DNA of 64,000 nucleotides, from positions 5,146,001 to 5,210,000 of the forward strand of contig NC_060254.1 in the NCBI RefSeq assembly GCF_921293095.1. The letters run 5' to 3'. The DNA comes from Ischnura elegans. Lineage: Eukaryota > Arthropoda > Insecta > Odonata > Coenagrionidae. Below are positions 3,301 to 63,267 of this stretch, piece by piece (positions within the stretch are counted from its first letter, which is position 1; each line of letters opens with the position of its first letter). The translations under genes and the position numbers were made by a program. The notes under the pieces were generated by a model. It searched no databases and had not been told where the DNA came from. It worked only from the letters and a program-made list of their open reading frames with translations.

Positions 3301-4640
3301 AACGGCAGTGGAGGAATTGCAACGTATGGTGGCGAACTTTTACCTCGAAAAATAGTCGAGAAAAAATCCATTAATCAAAAATCCTGAAATCGGTGTGAAA
3401 CATTTGATGAAATATAAATATCCGCGTAGGAGAAAATAGTCTAAAACAATATTCTTTAGCGAATACATTCTGCAATATTTACCAGCATGAGGGTCTTTCA
3501 ATTGGCCAACAGGGCTCTGTTAGCTGATTTTCGTTAGTTGGCTCTGATTATGATAGGGTGTCAATAACGAGATGCGTATTTTTCGGTTTCCCGACCGTCA
3601 CGATGGAAAATCGACGGCCCGTTCGCAGTTTAGTTGATGACGCCACGAACTCATTCCTACTGTTTCAACGCGTCTCGGCCATTATCGAGTAAACGAACGA
3701 AAACTCTAATGACGTCACCAACTCATGGAAGGTGGGAGGCCACTTTCGCTTTTTTTAACTAACGAGAAAATTACTCACTGAGGAATATTTTTCTTCCCTG
3801 ACACATCTTTCCCTTCCACTTTCCGAATTCTTTTCCGATTCGCGATTTCGGGACTAAATTACGCCATTCCTGGACACCTTCCCACGAACCAGGATAGGAG
3901 AAACATGATACACATAAGAAAAGTTGCTTTCCCCCCCACCCACATCCACAGCCAAGCATAGGACAAAAATGATTAAAATATGAAGGCGAGAAAATATCTC
4001 AAACCTCGAACCCACAATTATCCCAACAGACTCACCACTGAGACACCGGATCCTACGCAACAGCAAATTAATTAATGCCAGTCAAACTAAAGCTCATTCA
4101 AAGAAAGCGCCTCGCATTCCTAGCAGCGTTTCGAATGCCACAGAAGAATGACATCTAATAAGGCGTATCGAATCATACGCGTGTTGGATCTCCCCCACCC
4201 ACTGCTGCTTTCGGAGGCGTACCTCACCCCACTTCCTCTCTCTCTCTCTGCGTTCGTCCAATCACACGGTGCTAGCGGAGCACTTTTCACTTCCCATCCA
4301 CTATCATTCACTCGAGTTGGAGCACGTTTCTGTACGACTGTAAATAGGCAAGTCTACAGCATTAGCAGATTGGGAGGGAAGATTTCCTCAGAGGACGTGG
4401 AAAGTATCCTTCGTTTACCGTCGCACCACGATAGCAGGGATCACGAGAAGAAAGTAAAGCATATAGACTGCGAAACAAAGAGATTCAATTCTCTTCTCGT
4501 ACTATGGCGGATAACGACGACCAATGACATTTTTATCTTTTCCCAATTGTATTTTTTATCCTCACAGCATTTTCAATTCATTTTTTTCACGGTCTAATCA
4601 TAATAGAGTATTAAGAAGGATTTGGTGCTTTCTCGGCGAT
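373..4640. other. Intergenic, no supported gene
   Basis: AT-rich sequence with only short open frames. None has a recognisable domain, splice context or repeat partner within the window. A CT-rich patch with a CCAAT-like motif lies near 4200-4270. The 149-codon open frame running through it looks like composition rather than coding sequence. Confidence 0.5.
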
Positions 4641-4645
4641 TGCTG

Positions 4646-4862
4646 TTGATGAAATCTTCTCGGGAAATCAGCCGGGTAAGGATGGACACTGCTGCCAACG
4701 TTTCAATGGCCTTCTCTGCCATCGTCTTCAGGGCGAATGATGGACCTGGTTGCTGCCGGGCTTATATATACACAGTTGGGGAGGTCAAGTCGTCTGTCCA
4801 ATGTCTGTCGGTGCAATGTCCATCCTTACCCGGCTGATTTCTCGTGAAGACTTTATCAAAAA
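4646..4862 (-). mobile_element. Penelope-like promoter/ribozyme-like unit, short inverted repeat
   Basis: The ends 4646-4690 and 4818-4862 are inverted copies of each other (about 42 nt, few mismatches; shared core AATCAGCCGGGTAAGGATGG). Read on the minus strand, a TATATATAAG box at 4763-4770 is followed about 31 nt later by a motif at 4732-4701: CTGAAGA, C, a 6-bp stem GATGGC/GCCATT, then GAAAC. The same TATA-to-motif layout is seen at 50473-50961. Similar motifs are known from the terminal repeats of Penelope-like elements, where they relate to hammerhead ribozymes. Family assignment is inference, since no reverse transcriptase is present. Confidence 0.5.
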
Positions 4863-18700: not shown

Positions 18701-20328
18701 CTGTCTTTAAAAAACTGGACAAAATTTAGTCAAAAACAGCGATCTTGTAAGAAAATACACTGTAAAAAGTGAGAATTTTACAATTTATAAAATTTCATAA
18801 TTTATGATGGTTTCATTATCTACTAAGTGAATTATTTCCTCGAAACTGCATGGCTATCTAAGACGCCTCTAAAATAACCTAAAAAATTCTTCTGCGACCG
18901 TAATTTATTTTGATTTTATAAGATCTTTTCTTCTCTCGTGGGCTACAGCCTTGTCGTGGTGGAAAGGCTTATGCGTTCCTATGACCCCAAGAGCTGTACT
19001 GGCGGGTTTAATTCTAAATTATTCCCGGTAGAGCCACCCATGCCCAATAGGTCAAAGGGTAGGAGCCAGACTAAAGGTAGTCCACGTGATGGTGTCACGT
19101 GAAAAACACTGTTGGAATGGAAGTGGGAAACCCTACCAACTATCTCTTCCCTGAAAACATGGAGTACAACCAAATGAGCCTCGGAATCTCATCGCCCAGG
19201 ACCCATCCACAAAGGGTGGGTTTGGGGCACGGCAGCCAGGTCCTTGGGGTCGTCAACATGCGAAATCCTTGCAGAGACTTATCATCATCAGCAGCAGCAT
19301 CAGCAATGAAGAAGGAAGAAAAGAAGACCAAGAAGATGGAGAAGAAGAAGTTGGCAATAAATGTAGGGACGTGGAATGTGAGGACATTGATGAAGGCGTG
19401 GAAGTTAGAAAATATAAAAAGGGAAATGGATAAAGGGAGAATAGATATCTTAGGATTATGCGAGGTGAGGTGGAGGGATGGGGGGTACTACTGGAGTGAT
19501 GGTTATAGGGTTATATATAGTAGTGGGGAAGAAAGCCAGCGAGGGGTAGCTTTAGTATTAAACGGGAAGATGGGTAAGCTGGTGGTAGGTACAGACCAGG
19601 TAAGCGATAGGATTCTGGTGGTAGAAATTGAGGCGCGGCCCACCAACCTCTTGGTGGTTCAAGTTTACATACCCACTAGTAATGATAGGGAGGAAGAAGT
19701 AGATGAGGTGTATGAACAGCTCGAGGAATTAATAAGAGAAACTCCGGGTAAGAAAATCTAGTAGTGATGGGGGACTGGAATGCTTCATTCGGGGAAGGGA
19801 GGGATGGGAACTGAATAAGAGAATTTGGAGTAGGAATATGGAATGACAGGGCAGAGAAAGCAGCAGAATTTTGTAGGAGAAACAAATTATTCATCACAAA
19901 CACATGGTTCAATCGTCATAATGGGCAAAGATACACATGGAAAAGTCTAGGGGGAGATATCAGATAGACTACTTTATGGTAAGACAAAGGTTTAGGAATA
20001 ATGTGAAAAACTCACGAGGCTTCCCTGCAGTGGATGCCGATTCAGACCACAATCTAGTGCTTATGAAATGCAACGTAAGATTCAAAAGACTAAGAAAGTC
20101 AGGAAGGCGAGGACATAGAATGCAGAAGCGCTTAAGTGGACTATTGGGAGAGAATATCAGGATCTGGTGTACAATAGTTACGGGGAGATTGCAAGTACAC
20201 AGACTGTAGAGGAAGGGTGGGATAACAATATTAAAACAGGAATAGTCAAAGCGGTGGAGAAGTCAATTAGCTACATTGACAGCAGAAGGATAAAGAAGCA
20301 ATGGGTTATGGAGGCAATGGTAAAAGAA

Positions 20329-24169: not shown

Positions 24170-27100
24170 TAGGGCGGATCGCAAAAATCGATTTTTTTCA
24201 AATCCATCTGGCCCAATGAAAAAAAGTTGTGGGACCGATCAAAAATAAGGCCTGAAAAATTTGAGACCTGTACGTGAACCCCTGACCCTCGCTCAAATGC
24301 AATTTAGGGGGGAAGGGTCAAAATTCGAAAAATACAATATTTTATGGTCATTCCCTATAGATTTTGCCGAGTTACTGTCCTTCTACGACAAAAATTCGTG
24401 CATTTTGACGTATCTGCCACCATTTAGCCACAAAATGCCTAATTTGAGTCCGCGTCCGCGAAGAAAATATTCCAACGCCCACGCAGCGTCGCGGATACCA
24501 GTGCCGCAGGCCGATCCCTTCCCCTCCACGCAAGCTTCTCCCCCTCCCACGCCTCTAATACAGCAAAATTCATCCCGCGCATGCTGCTAGGAGGTCGTTT
24601 ATCTTTGATAATATAAATAAGAAGATGGTAGAAGGTAAAAAGCGATGCGTAGTGAGACGACTTGTCCCTTATTTGGCGCCTCGTCGGCGTTAAACAAATC
24701 GATGTTACCAACTTTTAGACATGTGATGAAATAATTTTAGACCTGCGCACGCAGGAAAGGAGACTACGGTCTATGAAGAAGCCTCTCGAGTGGCTATGAA
24801 GGTGTGCGAACTACGGTGACGCGCTTCTCTTCCATTATGAATGTGACTAAATGGATTTAGCGGTACCACAGGAAGTACTAAAACTTACGGAAAATCGTAA
24901 TAGGCCAAAAGTGGGTTTTATTGAAGTATAAGACTCAAACAATTTTAAAGGAACATTTTAAATTATGCGATATTTTTGCGTGTAAGTGCATGGAGGAGCA
25001 TAAGGTTCCCCCAATGAGAAGTATTTTGAGAGACAATCTGACGAAAAGAAAGATGATGGCTGCTGGATTGAACCCTAAAGAAACTCGGCAACTGAGGAAA
25101 AAAGGGAATCAAAGGAGAGTGTTGAGTCGACATCGTCAATTCTTGTTCGGGAAAATAGTATCAAAAATTTTCTTCATCAATTCATCCGAAGAAAATTAAA
25201 CTGGCGAGAAATTAGCCGATTTGTATCTCTACTTTCCTCATGAAATAAACATTAAGGACAATAACCTCAAACTGGAACTTCTTCGGGGAAAATGCGTCTG
25301 CCAACTGAGATAGAGGTATATGCAAGAACCAAGCAACAGCAATGCTCGTTCCCGCAACTTTAGCTAACGCAAAAGTCATAACTTCGTAAGATACATCAAA
25401 GCCAGTGTACCAGAATTACTTACGTATACAGAAAAAGATGCTAATTCCTGTAAATAAGAAAAGAGGGGCGTCATCAAAGCGTTCCATTTAATTGGAATGA
25501 AAGACTATACTCTTGTCTGATGAAAAAAGGCAAGATGACTTATCAATACAAGTTTAGAGGGGAATGTGTGGTGTTAGTTGAAGAAACAGGGTCCCACTTT
25601 TGGAGGTTTGCCTCCCCGTCGGAGGATTAGCAAAAGTTATAAAATTTGCGATTATCGATTCCTTTCCGAGTGAAAATCAGATACACAGAATTAAAAAGGA
25701 TTTGATTATGATGGTACCAAGCGAATACCGCCCAAAAAGGAGGCATCATCCCTTTGCTATAAGCATAATTCCAACATCCCTTGCAGTGTGGGTAAACTCT
25801 TCTCGGGATTCCCACCGGGTTAATTTTTCCATAATGGCCAACATTTCAAGCTCCGACTGGGGGCTCATCCTAAGGGATAAATTTTGTTGAACCCCGAAAA
25901 GAGTTTACCCACATCATTCGCCGGGAAAGCATCAAATCGTATTTCATCACTTACAGTGGTCTTTTTGCTAATTGCACTATGTTGACTTGGATTTTCGACA
26001 TGAACGTTGGGAGGGTAATCTAGGGACCGAATTTGCGTTTCTGCAAGGATGCGTTTGGCGACCAATCCGAAATTTTTTTAATTGCTGGATTTTAATATCG
26101 ACATAAAGGCTGATGATATATTGGAGAGAGACTCCGGTTCCTTCAGCTATATCTAAGCTTAGCGCTGTGGAATTTAAAAATCTATTGATGAAAGTTCAAA
26201 TTTAAATTTCAATATTCCTTTTATTATACATACGGACGAGAGATTCGCGAAAGAATTTACCAAAACTTTGTTGACAGCAGCAAAAGACGAGGAATGACAC
26301 TAACATAAGAAATACAGACTGGAAAGCAGGTAATTGAGTAATTCCTTCGTGATTGTTCCTCACTGGACGATGCTGATACATCAAATATTAGTAAGACTAA
26401 CGAAGAAAGACGCACTTGGTCTGAATTTTGTTGCATCTGGGGCGTTCGAGAGGAGCGGGGAGGGTACGCCGGCGGCCTTCACCCATATTCATCAATTTAG
26501 TCACAGCTGTCGGACAATACCGGAATAGAAATGCATAACCTAAGTTCCCAAACCTTCATAGCCACTCGAGAGGCGTCTTCAAGACCGTAGTCTCCTTTCC
26601 TGCGTGCGCAGGTCTAAAATTATTTCATCACATGTCTAAAAGTTGGTAACATCGATTTGTTTAACGCCGACGAGGCGCCAAATAAGGGACAAGTCGTCTC
26701 ACTACGCATCGCTTTTTACCTTCTACCATCTTCTTATTTATATTATCAAAGATAAACGACCTCCTAGCAGCATGCGCGGGATGAATTTTGCTGTATTAGA
26801 GGCGTGGGAGGGGGAGAAGCGAGCGTGGAGGGGAAGGGATCGGCCTGCGGCACTGGTATCCGCGACGCTGCGTGGGCGTTGGAATATTTTCTTCGCGGAC
26901 GCGGACTCAAATTAGGCATTTTGTGGCTAAACGGTGGCAGATACGTCAAAATGCACGAATTTTTGTCGTAGAAGGACAGTAACTCGGCAAAATCTATAGG
27001 GAATGACCATAAAATATTGTATTTTTCGAATTTTGACCCTTCCCCCCTAAATTGCATTTGAGCGAGGGTCAGGGGTTCACGTACAGGTCTCAAATTTTTC

Positions 27101-27504: not shown

Positions 27505-28806
27505 ACATGGTTATATAGTTGGATGAATTCCGCAAGAAATGTACCGTCATGCATTTGCTCAAATTAAGTTCGAGTCCCCTTTCTTGGCTCCACAAATGAA
27601 CATTGTTTAAATCAGATGATAGAATTTCGTAGTCAGAGTGATCACTAATTTCACGATAGATGATAGCGTCGTCAGTAAATTAACGTATTTTATCGCTAAT
27701 TCGGGAGCAGAGGTCGTTAATGTATATAAGGAACAAAAGGGGGCCGAACACGCTTCCATGTGGAACACCCGATGGCACTTTAACTACGTCAGCGCTAATT
27801 CCGCCATGAACTACTTTTTCTTTATGATCATTCAGAAAGTCACGTATCCAGTTTACCACTGATTCCTTTAATCCGCATGACTGTAATTTGTATAAAAGTT
27901 TGTTGTGAGGTACCGTGTCGAAAGTTTTCTTAAAGTCTAGAAAGAATGCGTCAACATGTCTTTTCGATTCACCAGATTTTATAACGTCGCACAGTGGGCT
28001 AGAATCGAAAAAAGCTGGCCAAAACCTCAAAATCGATTTTTTTGAGCTAGGAAGTTGAAACTTCGCATACACATTCTCAAATAAATTGTGCATAACTACC
28101 CAGATTATTTTGGTCCTGTGTTTTCACCTTAGCAATATATGTGAGGTCAAAGTTGAGCAAATTTAGCGAAAAACGACCACCCTCGATTTTTTCTGACAAT
28201 TGCCGACTTTATCCTCGTGCAGTGGTTTTATAAATAGTTTTATCGACAAAACTGTTATACCATCTTAATTGACACTTCTTATTCTTTCATTTGAAAGGTT
28301 TTTAAAGATTTTGTTTCATCAATAACCATAGATACATAACAAAATGGCGGAGCCTGTTTTCAACCCATTTTTTTACATAAACGTAGAAAAAAAGTAGACA
28401 TTGTCACCGGCTTACACTAAGTAACTTATAGCATGTCGTTCTTTGAAGCTTCTACGTTGTGAATCTAAAGTCAAACCTTGCACCAATTTGCAACCCCGAA
28501 TTTTAAACCGTTTTTTCGAACGCAGGGACGACTCCGGTTCTGGCCGGCGGCGGCGGAGAGTACGGCGACGCGGCAAGCGGGTGGATGCAATATGGTCTCA
28601 TTCACTTTTATGTGTGGATAACAGATATATTAGTTGCAGAACATAATCACCAGAAAGTAAAATTTATAAATATTGCTACGAATGACTCTCATTATGCAAT
28701 CGCTGGGCACTGCAAGAGGTGCACTGAAAGGTTTCTTTCTTTGAGTGCATTCCATGGAGAATGGACTTAAATCGCGTTCTTAAAGTGGGGAAACGGACTC
28801 TTTTAT
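27505..28806. repeat. Left arm of 1.3 kb inverted repeat
   Basis: This arm is the reverse complement of 30505-31806 with no difference noticed; the reading frames inside it are identical in both arms. It consists of 487 nt of CR1-like LINE (27505-27991) plus an 815-nt terminal inverted repeat of element 2 (27992-28806). The outer breakpoint falls in the LINE at 27505. Confidence 0.9.
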
Positions 28807-31319
28807 TAACTAACAAGCTCTATTTCTAGGCAAGAGCCCTCGATGATCCATGGCCTCCACTTCCTAACCTGCCATACATATTTAAAGGCCTTCGGACAAC
28901 GGTCGTTTTATAGTATTGTTGTAGTGCCGAGTCCTTCGAACTTGTTTTTGGTTTGAACTCCTTTTAGCTTTAAAAGCTTCGGAAGGCATATTACTCACAT
29001 CGAATAATGTATTCTTTCTAAGAATAACAGTTCATTTTAATCTATGTCTTATGATCAATATAAAGTATTGATTTAAATCTCTTACCTACATATCAACGTC
29101 ATTATTCTTAATGAACTGCGCTGCTGACAAAATGGTTATTTTTCAGGAATATTTTACCATACAAACATAACATAAACAAAAGCAACACAATTTACGCTTT
29201 TCCCAACTAACATTCTGCAATTAGCACTGTCAGCAATAAAAGGTTACTGTTTTTCATTCACTATCTGACGAGTTTTTATCACTTTCACTGTCTGAGCTAA
29301 AGCATTGTTTTCCTTTTTCAAAAACAGATCCATTACATTGTTCGGTAAGCTGTGTGTTTCCTCCAGTTTAATTGGTATAATTTTTATCATTATCAGTTAT
29401 GACATTAGGAGTTGTCTTCGAAATAAATCCCTATTTGTGGCCACTCGTGCCATTTTTCTAGTCAACCGTTCACGGAACTTTCTCACGTCCTTATATCGTG
29501 CCTATATTGCTTCCCCTGTCAGTTGTCGCAATTAAGAATGGACTCTGTTGCAATGTCAGCTCCTTGAATGAAGACCTTATGCACGGTTGGTGGCATACCA
29601 TAATTGTATTTAAAGCGTCAGTGAGAGAGAGAAAGAGAGAGAGAGAAAATTAAATTATTTGGAGAGGAAATCTAGAATAATTGTGATGACTTTTGAATAC
29701 TCGTGCCTGTTTCATGCTTCGCCTAACGAACAGCATTTTTTACCTAAACAAGAAGGCACAAAGGTGCTCACGAGCAATAATTCATGAGACATAGGCCCTC
29801 GTTCCCACGTGCAATTATATTTCGCATGTCCTCACTGCTATCAAAGCCGTGTTTGCAAATTAAAGTGCACTTTATATGCGACGCGAAACTAGGATCTGTG
29901 GAAATGCACGTTAAGATTCGAGTCGCAGAAAGAGAACAGAACCATTTTTGGAAACTTCTTATATAACCTCGGCTACAATAATTTCACTCGGGTAAATGAA
30001 ATCATATGCTCGCATCACTCTCTCATCGCTGGGGTTAATATTATATCCCTGGCATTTCAGATTTTCGAAGATTCTTGCACCGAAATTTGGTGAGCTGCAT
30101 GGACACAATTACTTATTGAGAGGGCCTCTTAATCTGACATAACATAATATTCGGGGTTGCATTTTATCCACTTGGCAAGAGTTCTTCTTGCCTCCGAGGA
30201 TGGTCACTGTATCTTCATTTTGCATTCGTTTTCCTCCTATTCGTTCTTTCGATACAACCCTGAAAACATGAATTGACGTCCATCTGCACTGGCTTAATTA
30301 GAGCAACGTGTAAATTGTGCTGCATAAGGAATAGTTATTAATTGCTTTAAATCAATAATATAAACTAAATAAGAATAATGAACTCTTCAAGCACCAAGAC
30401 AGTACTTGATTTGGCAAAATTCGGCAAAATCAAGTACTGTATTGAGCCATTTTCCATCACGTTTAAGGAATATTAACTGTTATTTTTAAAAAGTTTATTA
30501 GTTAGTAATAGAGTCCGTTTCCCCACTTTAAGAACGCGATTTAAGTCCATTCTCCATGGAATGCACTCAAAGAAAGAAACCTTTCAGTGCACCTCTTGCA
30601 GTGCCCAGCGATTGCATAATGAGAGTCATTCGTAGCAATATTTATAAATTTTACTTTCTGGTGATTATGTTCTGCAACTAATATATCTGTTATCCACACA
30701 TAAAAGTGAATGAGACCATATTGCATCCACCCGCTTGCCGCGTCGCCGTACTCTCCGCCGCCGCCGGCCAGAACCGGAGTCGTCCCTGCGTTCGAAAAAA
30801 CGGTTTAAAATTCGGGGTTGCAAATTGGTGCAAGGTTTGACTTTAGATTCACAACGTAGAAGCTTCAAAGAACGACATGCTATAAGTTACTTAGTGTAAG
30901 CCGGTGACAATGTCTACTTTTTTTCTACGTTTATGTAAAAAAATGGGTTGAAAACAGGCTCCGCCATTTTGTTATGTATCTATGGTTATTGATGAAACAA
31001 AATCTTTAAAAACCTTTCAAATGAAAGAATAAGAAGTGTCAATTAAGATGGTATAACAGTTTTGTCGATAAAACTATTTATAAAACCACTGCACGAGGAT
31101 AAAGTCGGCAATTGTCAGAAAAAATCGAGGGTGGTCGTTTTTCGCTAAATTTGCTCAACTTTGACCTCACATATATTGCTAAGGTGAAAACACAGGACCA
31201 AAATAATCTGGGTAGTTATGCACAATTTATTTGAGAATGTGTATGCGAAGTTTCAACTTCCTAGCTCAAAAAAATCGATTTTGAGGTTTTGGCCAGCTTT
31301 TTTCGATTCTAGCCCACTG
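27992..31319. mobile_element. Long-TIR DNA transposon (element 2) with flank duplicated in inverse
   Basis: A 3.3 kb element starting CAGTGGGCTAGAATCG and ending with its complement. TIRs are about 815 nt (27992-28806 and 30505-31319), with an AAAATCGATTTTTTTGAGC core similar to that of element 1. The middle (28807-30504) holds degraded frames; on the minus strand near 29500-29400 there is a stretch reading ARYKDVRKFRERLTRKMARV, not assigned to a family, and a short GA microsatellite lies at 29618-29648. Element ends of this type suggest hAT, but no direct target duplication exists: both flanks are inverted copies of the same LINE segment. Confidence 0.75.
28807..30504. other. Interior of element 2, no intact gene
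   Basis: About 1.7 kb of AT-rich sequence lying between the arms. Short broken frames occur on both strands. A 19-nt hairpin (AGTACTTGATTTGGC...ATCAAGTACT) lies near 30401-30445. Nothing here could be named. Confidence 0.45.
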
Positions 31320-31806
31320 TGCGACGTTATAAAATCTGGTGAATCGAAAAGACATGTTGACGCATTCTTTCTAGACTTTAAGAAAACTTTCGACACGGTA
31401 CCTCACAACAAACTTTTATACAAATTACAGTCATGCGGATTAAAGGAATCAGTGGTAAACTGGATACGTGACTTTCTGAATGATCATAAAGAAAAAGTAG
31501 TTCATGGCGGAATTAGCGCTGACGTAGTTAAAGTGCCATCGGGTGTTCCACATGGAAGCGTGTTCGGCCCCCTTTTGTTCCTTATATACATTAACGACCT
31601 CTGCTCCCGAATTAGCGATAAAATACGTTAATTTACTGACGACGCTATCATCTATCGTGAAATTAGTGATCACTCTGACTACGAAATTCTATCATCTGAT
31701 TTAAACAATGTTCATTTGTGGAGCCAAGAAAGGGGACTCGAACTTAATTTGAGCAAATGCATGACGGTACATTTCTTGCGGAATTCATCCAACTATATAA
31801 CCATGT
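30505..31806. repeat. Right arm of 1.3 kb inverted repeat
   Basis: Mirror of 27505-28806. Its outer 487 nt (31320-31806) is the CR1-like LINE segment in plus orientation, ending abruptly at CCATGT where an AT-rich element begins. The LINE does not continue further, so this side is the duplicated one and the left side is the original. Confidence 0.9.
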
Positions 31807-39299: not shown

Positions 39300-42200
39300 A
39301 ACGGTGATTTTAACTATAAAGTCATCACAATAAGTCAGCAATCCTAAGATTGGTTTGACGCAGCTCTCCATTCCTCTCTCCTATCCGCTTGCCTTTTCAA
39401 AGCTACGTCTCTCTTCTCTTTTACATCCTTTACAACCTGTCCCATGCAACTCATTTAGTGCTGTCCCTCGCCCTTCCTCTCTTCCACCTGTCCTTCAACG
39501 ATTGTCTTCATCAGGCCAACATGTCTCAAAATTTGACCAACTAAGTTGTCCTGTCTTCTTCTTAAGGTTTTTAGGAGGCTTCACTTTTCTCCCACTCTTA
39601 TTAGCACTTCCTCGTTACTTATTCGGTTTGTCAATTTTATCTTCATCATTTTTCGGTTGCACCACATTTCGAATGCTTCCACTCTTGACTTCTCTGCTGC
39701 TATCAATGTCCAAGCCTCGCTTCGATAGAGAAACATAATCCATACGTCTGATGGAAAAACATTATCCTTCTAATGAATTTTTTTTACTTCTATGCTTGTA
39801 TTCTCGGCTGTAAGAAGATTCTTCTTTTTGTAGAAAGCCCTCTTCGCCTGCGTTCTTCTACTGGCTATTTGTTTCTTTCTTCGTCCATCGTTGGTAATTT
39901 GCCCTCCCGGATAAGAAAACTGTTTCAACTCCTCAAGTTCACGCTTTCCTAGGTTAATGTTTGTCTTAGCCTCCTCTCTTTTGCTGCATAATATCTTAGT
40001 CTTCTTTTTGTTGATTTTCAGCTGATATCTGGCCATTGTCCTTTCTATGTTCGTCAAGGTCTTCTTCAAATCCTTCTCTGCCTCAGCTGTGAGTGCTCCA
40101 TTCCATGAGAACTCCATTCCACGTTAAGTTTCAAATGCCTACTCTAAATCGACAAATGCTATGAAAGTCGGTTTGTCTTTCTCAATTCTCTTCTCTATGA
40201 GCAGGCTAAGAGCCAAAATTGCTCCTTTTGTGCCCTTGCTTTTACTAAATCTTAATTGGTCGTCATCCAGGAAAGCTTCTGCTCTTCGTTCTATTCTCCT
40301 GTAAATGAATCTTGTCAGAATGTTACACGCATGTATCGTCAGGCTTTTGGTCCTAAAGTCTCTTCTTTTTGGGTATGGGAATGATGATGTTCTTCTCTAA
40401 GTCACTAGGTACATCTCCTGTTAAGTACATATGGTAGATAGTTTTATACAGTTGAGTTAAGACCTTCTTCTTCTCTATGTAAACATTAAAAATTAAGGGG
40501 GAAAGCGCACAACCTTGTCTCACCCCTTTTTTTATTCTCGCTTCTGCACCGTTTGGTCCACATTTGATCACAGCTACTTGGTTTTTATACAAACTATGAA
40601 TAATTCTACGATCATTGTAGAGTACGCCGATTTCTTTCAAAATTCTAAGCATTGAATTCCATTCCACGTTATCAAAGGCCTTCTCTAAATCGACAAATGC
40701 TATGAAGGTTGGTTTGTTTTTCTCCATTCTCTTCTCTATGATCATCCTAAGAGCCAAAATTGCTTCCCTTGTGCCCCTGCTTTTCCTAAATCCGAATTGG
40801 TCCTCATCCAGGAATTCTTCTGCTCTTCGTTCAATTCTCCTGTAAATGATTCTTGTCAGAATCTTCGACGCATGTGTCGTCAGGCTTATGGTCCTAAATT
40901 CTTCACACTTCTCAGCTCTCTTCTTTTTGGGTATGGGAATGATGATGTTCTTCTCGAAGTCACTAGGTAAATCTCCTGTTGAGTACGTATCGCAGATAGT
41001 TTTATACAGTTGAGTTAAGACCTTTTCTCCTGCATTTTTTATTAACTCTGCTGGAATGTCATCTATTCCTGGGGCCTTATTCTTTCGCAGGTCTCTTACT
41101 GCAGCGTCGAATTCCGATCTTAAGATGCTTGCTCCAATGTCATCCTTTTCAACTTCACTTTCCTCTTCGAGAACTTTTGAGCTAAGTTTGCTCCCGTTGT
41201 ATAATTTCTCCAGGTATTCCTTCCATCTCTCGGCTTTATCTTCGTTTTCAATTAGAATGTTTCCATTCCTGTCCCTTATGCTATTACATTTTGTGTTTCG
41301 TTCCTTGAAATGGTTCCTCACTATTCTATAGGCTTCCACTTTCCCTTTTACGAGGTTATTTTGTACGTCCTCACATATGTTCCTCATCCACGCTTCTCTG
41401 GCTTTCCTCGCTTGGCGGCAAATCTTGTTCCTTATTCTCTTGTAGCAAGCCTGTCCTTCCTCAGTATTCGTATTCTTATACTTTCTCCTTTCTTCAATGA
41501 GGTCTAGGATTTCATCCGTGATCCATGGCTTTTTCTTAACACATTTTCTTATCCCTAGAACTTCTCTAGCGGCCTCCTGAAGTCCACTTCTTAAGGTAGT
41601 CCAGTTATTCTCAACTGAGTTTTCAGACTGATCTAGTCCTATCTTGCGCTCCACTACTTCTTGAAAGGCCTGTTGATTTTTTGGCTCCTTAAGTTTCTCT
41701 AATTGCCAGGTGTTCTTTGCTGATTTCTTCAATTTCTTGAATTTCAGATGGCATTTCATCATCACTAGATTATGATCACTGTCGATATCTGCCCCCGGGT
41801 AGCTTTTACAGTCCTTTATCTGGTTTCTAAACCTCTGCTTCACAAAATATATTTTTATTGAAATCTTCTTTTGTCTCCTGGCATTTTCCATGTATATCTT
41901 CTTCGCATGAGATTCTTAAATAGAGTGTTGGCAACCACTAATTTGTTTTCTGTGCAGAACTCTAACAGCCTTTCTCCTCTTTCATTTCTATTTCCTAATC
42001 GATATTTTCCGGTTATCCTTCCATCCTGACCTTCGTCGAGGACAGCGTTCAAATCACCTAAAACAATAAGGTTTTCTTCACCCCTTACTAGTTTGATTAC
42101 TTCCCTGATATCATCGTAGACGTCTTCAACTTCTTAATCCTCGTAGTCTGTCGTAGGCATGTAAATCAGTACCACTACGGTATCTACCGGCTTAGTCTCT

Positions 42201-47069: not shown

Positions 47070-47244
47070 TAGAATAAAATAAAATAACTTTGTTTTATTC
47101 CACACTTTATTTTAAATAGCACGACCCGGGTTTCAGCATCTAGTGGTATCATCAGGACCTGATGATAGCACTAGATGCTGAAACCCGGGTTGTGCTTTTT
47201 AAAATAAAGTGTGGAATAAAACAAAGTTATTTTATTTTATTCTA
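47070..47244. repeat. Foldback repeat with ribozyme-like motif
   Basis: A 175-nt palindrome: arms 47070-47156 and 47158-47244 differ at only three of 87 positions, with one central base. Each strand carries CTGATGA, one base, a short stem around CTAGA, then GAAAC and the self-complementary ACCCGGGT. On the plus strand the motif is 47159-47184. The minus strand ends GGGTC|GTGC, like the cleavage-side sequence of a hammerhead. The outer parts are AT-rich (AATAAAATAAAATAAC). Confidence 0.7.
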
Positions 47245-49945: not shown

Positions 49946-50472
49946 CCGTGGTCTACACTACACACTTAACTTAAGTGACTTCACTTAAATATAATCTTAA
50001 ATGTGGTGCGGTAGCTACACTTGAGCTTTAAGTCGACTTCAGCACCGTGATTGTCTATATCGGGAAACAGTTATGTTGACAGATGAAGGTCTAGGAGAGC
50101 AATTAGTGATTCTTTGATCCAAAGCGACTGTTATTTGAAATAAACTTCCAAACTCCGTGAATTAACCATTTTGGATTCAGAAGGTTAAAAGGAAAGACCG
50201 ATTTCAGTTCCTGAGGGAACGCTATATGGCGAGAGGTGATGGGGCCACAGGTTAGAATTACTAAGCGTGACTTCTTGGAATGACATATTCATAACGTAAA
50301 CAAAAACACTTATTGCTAGTCAAATTCCACTGCTTTATTAAAACCATTGATGTTAAATTTCAACCATTAATTCCTCCCACGTCCAATGAAATCGCCACAT
50401 CTTATCGCCCTCGGCATCCCTAGGACTAACATTAAAGCCCTATGCAATAGTTTCAATAACAGTGTGTGGGAA

Positions 50473-50961
50473 TGTTAGAGCGTAGGTTTCCGCGGCGATG
50501 GTCTGATCTCTGCATTTTTCCAGGGTTTTCTTCCGCGTCAGGTTGTTGGTTGATTGACAACAGTTTCGCTGGCTGTCCTGCCAGCGTCTTCAGGTCGAAG
50601 GTGTCGGCTGTTGGTTTCTGCCTCGCTTATATACTGTAGGCTGGATGGGAGCTGCACTGTGATTGGCTGTCTGACTGGGTGCTTCTCTCTGATTGGCTCT
50701 CTCTTTGATGACTCTTTTCCAGGTGGATACTTCCTTCACAGCGCCTGGAAAAGAGTCATCAAAGAGAGAGCCAATCAGAGAGAAGCACCCAGTCAGACAG
50801 CCAATCACAGTGCAGCTCCCATCCAGCCTACAGTATATAAGCGAGGCAGAAACCAACAGCCGACACCTTCGACCTGAAGACGCTGGCATGACAGCCAGCG
50901 AAACTGTTGTCAATCAACCAACAACCTGACGCGGAAGAAAACCCTGGAAAAATGCAGAGAT
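50473..50961. mobile_element. Penelope-like inverted unit with two outward promoters
   Basis: Flanked by a 13-bp direct repeat CAGTGTGTGGGAA (50460-50472 and 50962-50974), the signature of a retroelement insertion. It is built of two nearly identical inverted arms of about 225 nt (about 50505-50728 and 50740-50961) around a short spacer. Each arm, read outward, has two CCAAT boxes, a TATATAAG box (plus: 50834-50841) and then, 33 nt further, CTGAAGA-C-GCTGGC-loop-GCCAGC-GAAAC (plus 50874-50904; minus 50593-50563). Inverted terminal arrangements and hammerhead-like motifs are known in Penelope-like elements. No RT or GIY-YIG sequence is present here. Confidence 0.65.
50834..50841 (+). promoter_or_regulatory. 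TATA box of right Penelope-like arm
   Basis: TATATAAG preceded by two ATTGG/CCAAT motifs within 75 nt and followed 33 nt later by the ribozyme-like motif. The mirror-image set lies in the left arm on the minus strand near 50626-50633. Confidence 0.55.
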
Positions 50962-51705
50962 CAGTGTGTGGGAAGTTACTGAGTGCATTCGTTTACGTTA
51001 TTTTCGATTATGACACCATGGAAAATGAACTGTTTTACCGGATCCTCTGCCGTCGTCTCATTGTCAGTCTTAAAATTCCTTAAAACGTTTCTAAGTTTTA
51101 TAAATCGAGTTTCACCGTGAGCAACAGTCATAAAGCAATTAGTTTTCACGGAAATAAAACCAACAATAAGATGAGAAACACTACAAAATAAATTCGTCGA
51201 ATTAATATCTCCAACACTAGAAATTAACTAACGAAATAGAACGCTCAATAACCACATCATACAATACAGCACAACTTAGAACATAATCAACGGGATGATG
51301 TGAGATGGGTATTATGTGCCATTTACAACACATGAAGAGCTTCAACCGTGCGGAAACAGTTGCCTACGCAATTTAAGTTGGGTTCTAAGATGACTTAAGT
51401 GGAGGTGTACTTAAATGAAGCTGGTGACACCTGCACTACCAACTTAAATACAGAGCCAACTTAAGTAGTCACTCAAGTTACTAGTGTAGACCCGGCACAG
51501 GCGAACGGGAGGAGACTGAGAAATAAAGGTTCATGTTGGCCTCAGGAGCAAACATAACATACGAACATCGTATTGCCATGGCCCCAAGATTCAAATGTTC
51601 TCGGTAATCTAAAATGGCTACGAATGGCGTCAAAATAAACGAATAGTGTTCCGCGTAAGTCTTAATATTCTGCTGCAGGACAGCTTCTGCTTCTAATGAG
51701 TACCC

Positions 51706-60005: not shown

Positions 60006-60438
60006 CATTGTAATCTTAAACTGCTGGCATGATTGTGCTCGTGACGTAACAATTTGCATTCTTTACACATTGCATTACGACTTCTATATTCGGGCGCCTT
60101 CACTTAAGTATGAGACCACGTTTCTAGGTAAATACCTTTTTTTATTAGGAATTCCACATTTTAAACGACCTTCATAATGTATATACATTTGATTATTTCA
60201 TAGATGAGCCTGCAGTGGAATAATTTTATTTTATGGGGATATTTCTGTGGACCTTTCCCTTGGGCTACAACCTTGTCACATTGGAAAGGCTTGCGCGTTC
60301 CTATGACCCCTAGAGCTGCACTGGCGGGATTAATTCTAAATTATTCCCGGTAGGGCCACCCATGCCAGATAGGTCGAAGGGTAGGAGCCAGACGAAAGGT
60401 AGTCCACGTGATGGTGTCACGTAAAAAACACTGTTGGA

Positions 60439-63267
60439 ATGGAAGTGGGAAACCCTACCAACTATCTCTTCCCTGAACACATGGAGTACAACCAAATGAG
60501 CCTCGGAATCTCATCGCCCGGGACCCGTCCGCAAAGGGCGGGTGTCGGGCACGGCAGCGAGGTCGGCAAGGTCCTCGGGGTCGCCAACATGCGAAATCCT
60601 TGCAGAGAATTATCATCATCACCATCAGCGGCAGCAGCAATGAAGAAAGAAGAACGGAAGACCAAGAAGATGGAGAAGAAGAAGTCGGCTATAAATGTGG
60701 GGACGTGGAATGTGAGGACTATGATGAGGGCGGGAAAGTTAGAAAATATCAAAAGGGAAATGGATAAAGGGAGAATAGATATCTTAGGATTATGCGAGGT
60801 GAGGTGGAGGGATAGGGGGGACTATTGGAGTGATGGATATAGGGTTATATATAGTGGAGGGGAAGAAAGCCAGCGAGGGGTAGCATTAGTATTAAACGGG
60901 AAGATGGGTAAGCGTGTGGTAGGTATAGACCAGGTAAACGATAGGATTCTGGTGGTAGAAATTGAGGCGCGGCCCGCCAACCTTGTGGTGGTCCAAGTTT
61001 ACATGCCCACTAGCAATCATAGGGAGGAAGAAGTAGATGAGGTGTATGAACAGCTCGAGAAAATGATTAGAGACACACCGGGTAAGAAAAATCTAGTAGT
61101 GATGGGGGACTGGAACGCTTCAGTCGGGGAAGAGAGGGATGGACATGAAATAGGAGATTTTGGTCTAGGAATACGGAACGATAGGGGAGAGAAAGCAGCA
61201 GAATTTTGTAGGAGAAACAAATTTTTCATCACAAACACGTGGTTCAATCATCATAAAGGGCGAAGGTACACGTGGAAAAGTCCAGGGGATGCGGGGAGAT
61301 ATCAAATAGACTACATTATGGTAAGACAGAGGTTTAGGAATTGTGTGAAAAACTCGCGCAGCTTCCCTGCAGCGGATGCGGATTCGGACCACAATTTAGT
61401 GCTCATGAAATGCAACGTAAGATTCAAAAGACTTATAAGAGTTAGGAAGACGACGAAAAGGAACGCAGAAGCCCTGAAAGGGAGTATGAGGAGAGAATAT
61501 CAGGAACTAGTGGATATTAGTATGCGGGACATTGACAGCACCAAGATTGTTGAGGAAAGATGGGATAATATTAAAACGGGAATAGTCAAAGCGGCGGAGA
61601 AGTCAATTGGCTACGTGGACAGTAGAAGGATAAAGAAGCCGTGGATAACGGAGGCAATGGTAAAAGAAATGGAGGAGAGAAGGAAGTGGAAGAACGTGGA
61701 CACAGAACAGGGCAAAAGAATGTATAGGGAATTGAATAATCGATTACGACGTGAAACTAAGAGGGCAAGGGAGGCTTGGTGGAAAACACAATGTGAGGAA
61801 ATGGAAAAGTTCCAGAAGGGGGGAGAAGTAGGCGCGTTGTACGCCAAAGTTAAGTCGCTATCGGGCGGCAAAAGAGGACAAGCCGTGTCTAAAATTAAGG
61901 CTAAGGATGGGAGGATGCTAACCGAGCGAGCAGAGGTACAGGGTAGGTGGAAGGAATACGTGGAGGACCTGTATGACGGAACGAACAGACCAGAGAGATT
62001 GACTCTAGAGGAGGAAAGTGCAGTGGAGGAGGATAATCTTGGACCGCAGATATTAGATTCGGAAATAGAGAGAGCACTTCGTGATATGAAGGCTAGGAAA
62101 GCAGTAGGCGTGGACAACATCCCGTGTGAGCTCCTGAAGAATCTAGGGAAGGAAGGTAAGAAAAGGTTTTTCGAACTAAAGCGCAGGATCTATGAGGAGG
62201 GATGTTGGCCGGAGGATTTCGTGAAGACGGTTTTAATTCCGCTTCCGAAAAAGAAGAAAGCTGTGGAATGCGGAGTTTATAGGACTATCAGCCTAATATC
62301 GCATGCGGCGAAATTGGTGCTGAGGATATTGAACAGACGAATGGAGGCGAGGGCAAACGAATATTTGGGCGAAGATCAGTTTGGTTTCAGAAAAGGGAAG
62401 TCAACTCGTGATGCAATAGCAATAATGAGGTCCCTCGTGGAGAGGAGGCTAGAATATGACCAGGACGTATATGCGTGTTTCGTGGATTTTGAAAAAGCGT
62501 TTGATAGGGTGAACTGGGTGAAGTTAATGGATATTCTCAAGAGAATGGGTGTAGATTGGAGGGATAGACGACTGATTCGTAATCTGTATATGGCCCAGAC
62601 TGCGCAAGTGTGGATAGCGGACGGAGAATCTGGGTGGGCAAGCATTGGCCGAGGTGTGAGGCAAGGCTGTCCTCTATCGCCGCTGCTCTTTAACATGTAC
62701 GCTGAAGAGATGATAAGGGAAGCGTGGGATGAGTTAGAAGCTGGGATAAAAGTGGGAGGAATGATGTTCAAATCAGTGAGATTCGCGGATGACCAGGCGT
62801 TGATCAGCCAGTCAGCGAGGGGGCTTCAGGCTCTAGTGGATGTGTTATACGAACGTTGCGAGGAGTATGGGATGAGGATTAATCACAAGGAAACTAAGGT
62901 TATGCGGTTTTGTAAAGCATCACGAGCGAGGAATGTGAGACTCAAGATAAAGGTGGGTGGTGAAAAACTTGAGCAGGTTGAGCAATTCAACTATTTAGGC
63001 AGTACGTTAGAGGAAAACGGATACAGTAGTGAGGACATCAGGAAGAGAATAGCATTAGCGAAGGAGGCGTTTATGAACAGGGAGGAGCTTCTGAGAGGAT
63101 CGTTGTGTAAGAGTTTAAAGAAAAGGCTGGTGAAGAGTTTGATTTGGATTGTAGCTCTCTACGGTGCGGAAACGTGGACACTGAGGAAAGAAGACGAGAG
63201 AAGATTGGAGGCATTCGAGATGTGGGTATGGAGAAGAATGGAGAGGGTGAAATGGACGGAGAGGTGA
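60439..63267 (+). CDS. LINE endonuclease-reverse transcriptase, one premature stop
   Basis: 942 codons open; an in-frame TGA at 63265-63267 is followed by the rest of the protein in the same frame to 63552 (about 1036 residues in all). Copy A has AAA at that codon, so the stop is a late change. Apurinic-like endonuclease, residues 86-320: GTWNVRT, LGLCEVRW (Glu120), GDWNA (Asp224), SDH (316-318). RT: IPLPKKKKAVECG, then YRTISL near residue 615, FVDFEKAFDRV (Asp683), GVRQGCPLSPLLFNMY and FADD (782-785), all complete. The C-terminal tail has FEMWVWRRMERVKWTER. The N-terminal 85 residues are Lys/Ser-rich. The loss of about 95 C-terminal residues may impair retrotransposition. Confidence 0.92.
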   Translation: MEVGNPTNYLFPEHMEYNQMSLGISSPGTRPQRAGVGHGSEVGKVLGVANMRNPCRELSSSPSAAAAMKKEERKTKKMEKKKSAINVGTWNVRTMMRAGKLENIKREMDKGRIDILGLCEVRWRDRGDYWSDGYRVIYSGGEESQRGVALVLNGKMGKRVVGIDQVNDRILVVEIEARPANLVVVQVYMPTSNHREEEVDEVYEQLEKMIRDTPGKKNLVVMGDWNASVGEERDGHEIGDFGLGIRNDRGEKAAEFCRRNKFFITNTWFNHHKGRRYTWKSPGDAGRYQIDYIMVRQRFRNCVKNSRSFPAADADSDHNLVLMKCNVRFKRLIRVRKTTKRNAEALKGSMRREYQELVDISMRDIDSTKIVEERWDNIKTGIVKAAEKSIGYVDSRRIKKPWITEAMVKEMEERRKWKNVDTEQGKRMYRELNNRLRRETKRAREAWWKTQCEEMEKFQKGGEVGALYAKVKSLSGGKRGQAVSKIKAKDGRMLTERAEVQGRWKEYVEDLYDGTNRPERLTLEEESAVEEDNLGPQILDSEIERALRDMKARKAVGVDNIPCELLKNLGKEGKKRFFELKRRIYEEGCWPEDFVKTVLIPLPKKKKAVECGVYRTISLISHAAKLVLRILNRRMEARANEYLGEDQFGFRKGKSTRDAIAIMRSLVERRLEYDQDVYACFVDFEKAFDRVNWVKLMDILKRMGVDWRDRRLIRNLYMAQTAQVWIADGESGWASIGRGVRQGCPLSPLLFNMYAEEMIREAWDELEAGIKVGGMMFKSVRFADDQALISQSARGLQALVDVLYERCEEYGMRINHKETKVMRFCKASRARNVRLKIKVGGEKLEQVEQFNYLGSTLEENGYSSEDIRKRIALAKEAFMNREELLRGSLCKSLKKRLVKSLIWIVALYGAETWTLRKEDERRLEAFEMWVWRRMERVKWTER

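Follow-up and report, generated by a model that had tools for sequence, protein, structure and literature searches.

A 489-bp insertion at positions 50473-50961 of a 64,000-nt stretch of the Ischnura elegans genome (NC_060254.1, 5,146,001 to 5,210,000, forward strand; hereafter the window) has a 13-bp target-site duplication (TSD) on either side and consists of two inverted, outward-facing arms. Comparison with related loci supports the identification of the arm as the pseudo-LTR (pLTR; LTR, long terminal repeat) of a Penelope-like element (PLE), and of the unit as a severely 5'-truncated PLE copy. Very probably, it was inserted recently, in strongly 5'-truncated form, at a staggered break, where two 3' ends primed at adjacent sites and the two cDNAs became joined head to head. 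Published work already covers inverted pLTRs, tails and PLE hammerheads, and the unit is of a known kind. A count of the two-end rule described below and TSD-flanked bidirectional arrays were not found in the literature searched, which left out three key older papers. The insertion mode of PLEs and the in vivo role of their hammerheads are described as unresolved in the literature (PMC11167929 and reviews). Young copies whose TSDs are intact are numerous in the present genome, and from them start-site use, cDNA coupling and the fate of tandem transcripts may be read.

In the repeat listing the inverted arms occupy 50503-50723 and 50744-50964, 221 nt each, 20 nt apart and 100% complementary, which is far beyond chance. 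Compared position by position, they differ at one of 218 common positions (pLTR position 146 in loop II: T in the + arm, G in the - arm). The sequence-only reading of this DNA had described a 13-bp direct repeat around two near-identical inverted arms, and its coordinates were right. We take the direct repeat as a TSD because repeats of 9-13 bp and of differing sequence stand at the same boundary in 25 of 26 family copies tested with a script permitting an offset of up to 4 nt, the window unit being among the 25; the other copy, L026, has no exact repeat. The first three nucleotides of the right TSD (CAG) match pLTR positions 219-221 as well. The arms meet head to head in a 3-nt overlap at 50721-50723, and the 20-nt centre is, by its sequence, the inner part of the right arm and not a separate spacer or an independent loop.

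Two nucleotide searches with the arm gave matches at many genome sites (40 of 1505 and 40 of 1563 first-look candidates scored). One locus, L009, has an open frame of 870 amino acids with a reverse transcriptase (RT) domain (RVT_1, E 9.7e-15) and the motifs YVDD and GVY-x9-YIG. There, the arm is the 3' end of this frame plus the pLTR: the frame enters the arm and stops at pLTR positions 132-134, within CTGAAGA, and it is for this reason that the arm is identified as a PLE pLTR. The first in-frame ATG of the next open reading frame (ORF) stands at pLTR position 209. The window copy retains only PLE amino acids ~820-870 and the pLTR, and the insertion looks young because all 251 nt of its left arm agree with the L009 pLTR. 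Families at 56-66% identity were among the 52 scored matches of a genome protein search, and GVY-x9-Y[IV]G is present in three aligned PLE families. The Penelope derivation suggested earlier is supported, as the arm is joined in other copies to an RT frame with a GIY-YIG-like motif; the outcome named earlier as refuting it, an arm that nowhere accompanies an RT-GIY-YIG element, is thus not observed. The GIY-YIG assignment itself is based on motif residues and one sub-threshold profile match.

The pLTRs are inverted in 18 family copies, and both direct and inverted in L030 and at the L009 locus. The latter (C1:160656991-160667311, with L078-L080) is a 10.3-kb PLE insertion with the duplication TAAGTCAGGAG and with sequence of a long interspersed nuclear element (LINE) within its internal pLTR. 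An RNA 5' end at pLTR 114, considered on the basis of this locus, was rejected in favour of the LINE interruption: beyond the interruption the PLE breaks off at ~108, and it continues from 114. The locus was covered in two pieces about 4.1 kb apart, so one or several LINEs are possible.

Seven other matches (C7:411709, C2:343283, C1:2317372, C3:138928837, C4:134208744, C5:137469308 and C6:125336033), several of them near contig ends, have the same query extents (4-262, 97-98%) and are possibly one insertion multiplied by duplication. At L043, tRNA-like sequences lie at 767-830 and 1089-1161 (40.7 and 51.8 bits), close to a PLE end.

Two different ends and multi-unit arrays

All 31 copies with both ends placed combine an end at pLTR 244-251 with one at 215-222 (or at the matching positions of their family), about 31-33 nt short of the first; a 31-nt tail (pLTR 221-251) is thereby present on one end only in each of the 31. 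They comprise 17 copies from the fit to L009, L030, nine further pairs, L009 itself, two arrays and one C3 pair, whose short arm was derived from coordinates. At L009 the far arm is 10.3 kb distant and an 11-bp duplication is common to both ends. Many of the 31 were found by a tail-containing query, which ensures one tailed end; in the less biased subset, in which both arms were found by a tail-free query, 12 of 12 pairs were mixed, for which the probability is at most 2^-12 if each end chose its site independently. Outside the cuts, the target favours T at positions 1, 3 and 4 (33, 34 and 35 of 50, both strands). Across copies, PLE coding sequence of 12 to 2321 nt lies between the aligned arms.

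We propose that the element endonuclease would make a staggered break, from which the 13-bp duplication would result. Both 3' ends would then prime reverse transcription on element RNA, one near pLTR 251 and the other near 220. In the window unit both cDNAs would have ended after ~240-250 nt, and head-to-head joining with 3-nt microhomology would have left two outward-facing pLTRs. Extension of both strands has a precedent in PAc, an endonuclease-bearing PLE of Anolis carolinensis (Penelope/Poseidon clade), in which both strands are cut and extended in vitro and two adjacent internal RT start sites bound the tail (PMC11167929). The present family resembles PAc, which has RT and GIY-YIG in one ORF, in its single ORF with RT and a GIY-YIG-like motif, its pLTRs and its tail between two RT starts. 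The PAc start site, however, was the same for both strands, and because of this the PAc work does not explain the strict one-of-each ends seen here.

Two arrays extend the two-end pattern to much larger insertions. At C13:13452-13468 kb the units are ordered - - + + + + with a period of 2517 bp, and at C19:59910-59926 kb they are ordered - - - - + + with a period of 2530 bp. Both arrays have a perfect short duplication at their borders and one tailed and one tailless end each. By these borders, each ~16-kb array looks as if it were a single insertion event, with two full units on one side and four on the other. Two adjacent C19 units are identical at all 2671 compared positions, and the hammerhead-like motifs are intact in the sampled array pLTRs (seven in C19, four in C13; the C19 sample covers seven of eight pLTRs and leaves out the right arm's middle one).

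From these data we tentatively put forward a wider reading, which we regard as a serious possibility still short of an even chance. In each PLE insertion, both adjacent RNA start sites would serve a single time, each for a different target strand, as though a single ribonucleoprotein with one RNA fired the two; the same mode could insert whole ~16-kb bidirectional arrays at once; and the motif would be a regulated divider of tandem ORF transcripts and not a template-making step. The regulated role is proposed because array templates would have to escape cleavage although the sampled pLTRs hold intact motifs.

The hammerhead-like motif and the promoter-like block

Both arms of the window unit carry the motif. 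Counted outward on either strand, CCAAT stands at arm positions 28 and 58, TATATAAG at 91 and CTGAAGA at 131. The order CCAAT, CCAAT, TATATAAG, CTGAAGA-C-stem-GAAAC, as first read from the letters, was found on both strands; the gap between TATATAAG and CTGAAGA exists, and by our count is 32 nt long instead of the 33 nt given. In the + arm, stem I is formed by GAC 50871-50873 and GTC 50909-50911 and stem II by 50882-50887 and 50894-50899, with CTGAAGA at 50874-50880, GAAA at 50900-50903 and cleavage predicted between 50908 and 50909. The TGA at 50875-50877, within the motif, is the PLE stop codon.

Across 12 pLTR regions of this genome's PLE copies the covariation score is 0.456, as compared to 0.135 +/- 0.031 in 500 shuffles and to at most 0.13 when slid. 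The covariance model was built from relatives and the - arm, which is one of its 12 sequences, and the match of the + arm is therefore not independent. A set of 15 sequences was obtained by adding three motifs that the model from the 12 had found (window 4662, L026:4297, L012:7832); these were picked by a model that rewards pairing, and decayed matches and near-identical relatives were excluded. In this set, 85 of 90 stem II cells are paired (60.2 in shuffles, p<=5e-5). Stem I, mostly invariant, is paired in 45 of 45 cells (40.2, p 0.0025), and the two pairs of stem III in 30 of 30 (29.1, p 0.14). The predicted cleavage nucleotide H17 is U in eight sequences, C in six, A in one and G in none. 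CTGANGA is present in 14 of the 15 (L046 has CCGAAGA). In all 15, GA is separated from stem II by one additional nucleotide (C, A or T), a position at which the textbook hammerhead core has none. A usable helix III is lacking; the pairing there has at most 2 bp and a loop of 0-1 nt. In folding of the 49-nt core, stems I and II form along with non-hammerhead pairs, and a CUUC/GAAG hairpin competes (-16.3 and -16.2 kcal/mol); because the two energies are almost equal, core folding does not itself favour the active form. The hammerhead-like reading, already offered in the sequence-only reading, gains support from the covariation across PLE families; the lack of a usable helix III, the extra nucleotide and the lack of an Rfam match speak against it.

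Minimal type I hammerheads of PLEs and Terminons (Cervera and de la Pena 2014; Lunse et al. 2017; compared by way of the descriptions in the reviews PMC6155905 and PMC7761336) likewise have a core without helix III and reside in pLTRs, and such motifs possibly cleave as dimers (PMC6155905, PMC7761336). Each outward transcript of the window unit would hold one motif copy only. Metazoan non-LTR retrozymes also have type I hammerhead motifs in tandem multi-copy repeats (PMC7229834); they are small and non-coding, whereas the motif here sits in an RT-encoding family. As in PAc, the motif lies in the pLTR near the ORF start. Unlike in PAc (PMC11167929), the predicted cut (pLTR 165/166) precedes the first in-frame ATG (209) by 43 nt, and the stop of the previous ORF is inside the motif.

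A promoter-like block accompanies the motif. Among 18 pLTR sequences, which include both window arms and close relatives and represent fewer than 18 families, 14 have a TATA element 36-47 nt upstream of the core and 15 have at least one CCAAT upstream of it. As far as sequence can tell, the coupling of block and motif is a PLE family trait, and the coupling pointed out for the window unit thus recurs in the family. In a complete element, the pLTR would provide a Pol II-type promoter within the end of the coding region and a minimal hammerhead-like motif whose CUGA holds the ORF stop. Downstream of the predicted cut would follow the first in-frame ATG of the next ORF and the region where reverse transcription starts. 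In tandem units this cut would lie within the 74-nt stop-to-ATG gap, and cleavage there would split a tandem transcript into single-ORF pieces, each possibly translated from the ATG at 209. As for the window unit itself, inert debris is its most likely nature, although outward transcripts may arise from it.

It is also conceivable, if on balance unlikely, that CTGANGA-stem-GAAA is conserved for binding of the PLE protein or for translation near the stop and start codons, with no cleavage. The departures from the hammerhead core listed above agree with this, as do the contiguous C19 and C13 arrays with intact motifs, whose templates were apparently uncut. In addition, PAc ribozyme mutants still insert in vitro, and no RNA-seq reads that end at the cut site were found in that study (PMC11167929). 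Against a non-cleaving motif, the predicted cleavage nucleotide is never G in the 15 sequences, as the hammerhead rule demands, and the PAc motif does cleave once the PLE protein is added, cleavage having required the element's own protein (PMC11167929).

Fold-back copying and other alternatives

Several observations weigh against the interpretation of the unit as a PLE insertion primed from both strands and of its motif as hammerhead-like. The GIY-YIG profile PF01541 was matched in one relative at E 0.0066 and 17.2 bits, below the cut-off of 22.6. The C-terminal part of the window family matched neither GIY-YIG in Pfam nor a solved structure among PDB sequences. Neither the arm nor any of 11 relatives gave a hammerhead match with Rfam models including RF00163, and a genome-wide search with RF00163 was empty, as were its controls, which makes it uninformative. 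Eight fetched PLE loci were unscorable for ends (L020, L023, L033, L035 and L036 with the tailed end only; L032 with the tailless end only; L024 and L031 with a second piece that stops short of the pLTR end), and many further matches lie outside the sample. In 8 of 22 copies, the inner arm endpoints are at most 25 nt apart on the template, where 2.2 are expected (p ~2e-4; this threshold was picked after the data had been seen, and p is 0.02 at 15, 0.004 at 40 and 0.03 at 60 nt). In C19, a private A is common to the innermost pLTR of either arm, whereas the remaining five sampled have G; in C13, the array centre is almost a palindrome. Two separate rolling copies of a single circle are disfavoured by the private A, which speaks instead for a common linear template or fold-back. 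Together, the private A, the C13 centre and the near-equal endpoints point to fold-back copying, or to a common template end, in some events.

Fold-back, or self-priming, would have the cDNA snap back and copy its own strand into the inverted arm, the other target end being joined later. It is favoured for the PLE palindromes of Adineta vaga (PMC3846280), and the distance of up to 25 nt between arm ends in the eight copies is the size of a small hairpin loop. As the general explanation we consider it rather improbable. A snap-back copy should pass 251 into inverted flank, whereas the second arm stops near 220, and a direct duplication stands beside the end of the second arm in 25 of the 26 tested copies. 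Moreover, the inner endpoints are 86-1303 nt apart in 14 of 22 copies (899 nt in L013, 1303 nt in L019), and in copies with such unequal endpoints simple copying of the first arm does not account for the second. Letters deviating from the majority are common to both arms in 4 of 14 copies (206A in the window unit and L026; 12 sites in L027; 16 sites in L028); the other ten share none, and 12 of the 14 have at least one difference between arms. A mixed model, with two primed cDNAs and with fold-back at the joint only in some events, may apply.

The comparison with Pen2a_Av of Adineta vaga is close in structure: the 5'-side pLTR is inverted, a 31-bp tail is present on one inverted pLTR, TATA lies in the pLTR, the pLTR overlaps the ORF start and the TSD is 9-10 bp (PMC3846280). 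Self-priming is the interpretation favoured there; the present copies have mostly unequal arm endpoints, and those with both ends placed end at two different start positions. The word hammerhead is absent from PMC3846280.

A bidirectional promoter adopted by the host at the window locus, with 5' ends processed by the ribozyme, would fit the promoter-like and hammerhead-like elements on both arms; we regard it as highly improbable, as 251 of 251 left-arm positions identical to the L009 pLTR leave little time for visible selection. A non-autonomous fold-back DNA transposon or miniature inverted-repeat transposable element would share the long near-perfect terminal inverted repeats, the short centre and the TSDs, and was rejected as the least credible explanation because the arms end at two different recurrent positions (near 251 and near 220) in 31 of 31 copies, the inter-arm stretch, including the centre of the unit, is PLE coding sequence of widely differing length, and the TSD length is variable (9-13 bp).

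Coordinates and other features in the window

The elements of the unit are compiled in Table 1.

Table 1. Elements of the inverted PLE unit, in window positions
Feature	Position	Strand	Basis
TSD, left copy, CAGTGTGTGGGAA	50460-50472		repeat listing and TSD script
TSD, right copy, CAGTGTGTGGGAA	50962-50974		repeat listing and TSD script
Tailed pLTR arm, pLTR positions 251 to 1	50473-50723	-	251/251 nt identical to L009 PLE pLTR
31-nt tail, pLTR positions 221-251, inside PLE ORF start; other arm without tail	50473-50503	-	fit to L009
Tailless arm, PLE positions -22 to 218	50721-50961	+	fit to L009
Unit centre, 20 nt, C-terminal PLE coding (..DGYFLHS..)	50724-50743	+	tblastn of L009 frame: amino acids 820-870 at 50722-50874
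Promoter-like block, + arm: CCAAT 50771-50775, CCAAT 50801-50805, TATATAAG 50834-50841	50771-50841	+	sequence; recurs in other PLE families
Promoter-like block, - arm: CCAAT 50696-50692 and 50666-50662, TATATAAG 50633-50626	50626-50696	-	sequence; recurs in other PLE families
Hammerhead-like motif, + arm	50871-50911	+	covariance model, 82.3 bits at 50864-50944
Hammerhead-like motif, - arm; predicted cleavage between 50559 and 50558	50556-50596	-	covariance model, 87.2 bits at 50523-50603

MicroRNA-family matches over 50507-50959 were dismissed as artefacts of the hairpin that the inverted repeat forms; none of the 19 matches in that scan reached its gathering score. A long hairpin at 47107-47208 has weak matches to microRNA and Wolbachia sRNA models, below thresholds.

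A second, older PLE-type unit lies at ~4640-4860, with a motif at 4662-4741 (- strand) that scores 37.9 bits with our own covariance model. It reads TATATATAAG, then CTGAAGAC-GATGGC..GCCATT-GAAACGTT|GGC, and has inverted arms of 47 nt (89%) and, by eye, a possible CTCTATTAT duplication. A third, decayed candidate at 25805-25884 (- strand; 15.2 bits, E 0.062) has 25-nt inverted arms at 92%.

Other retroelement sequence in the window includes an inverted repeat of 1315 nt (27505-28819 and 30492-31806), listed as 100% complementary, with the copies 1672 nt apart and with a reverse-transcriptase piece. Non-LTR retrotransposon frames are found at 60412-63264 (+; RVT_1 and endonuclease), at 40356-41915 (-; RVT_1) and at 19090-19758 (+), the last with an endonuclease part resembling the protein at 60412.
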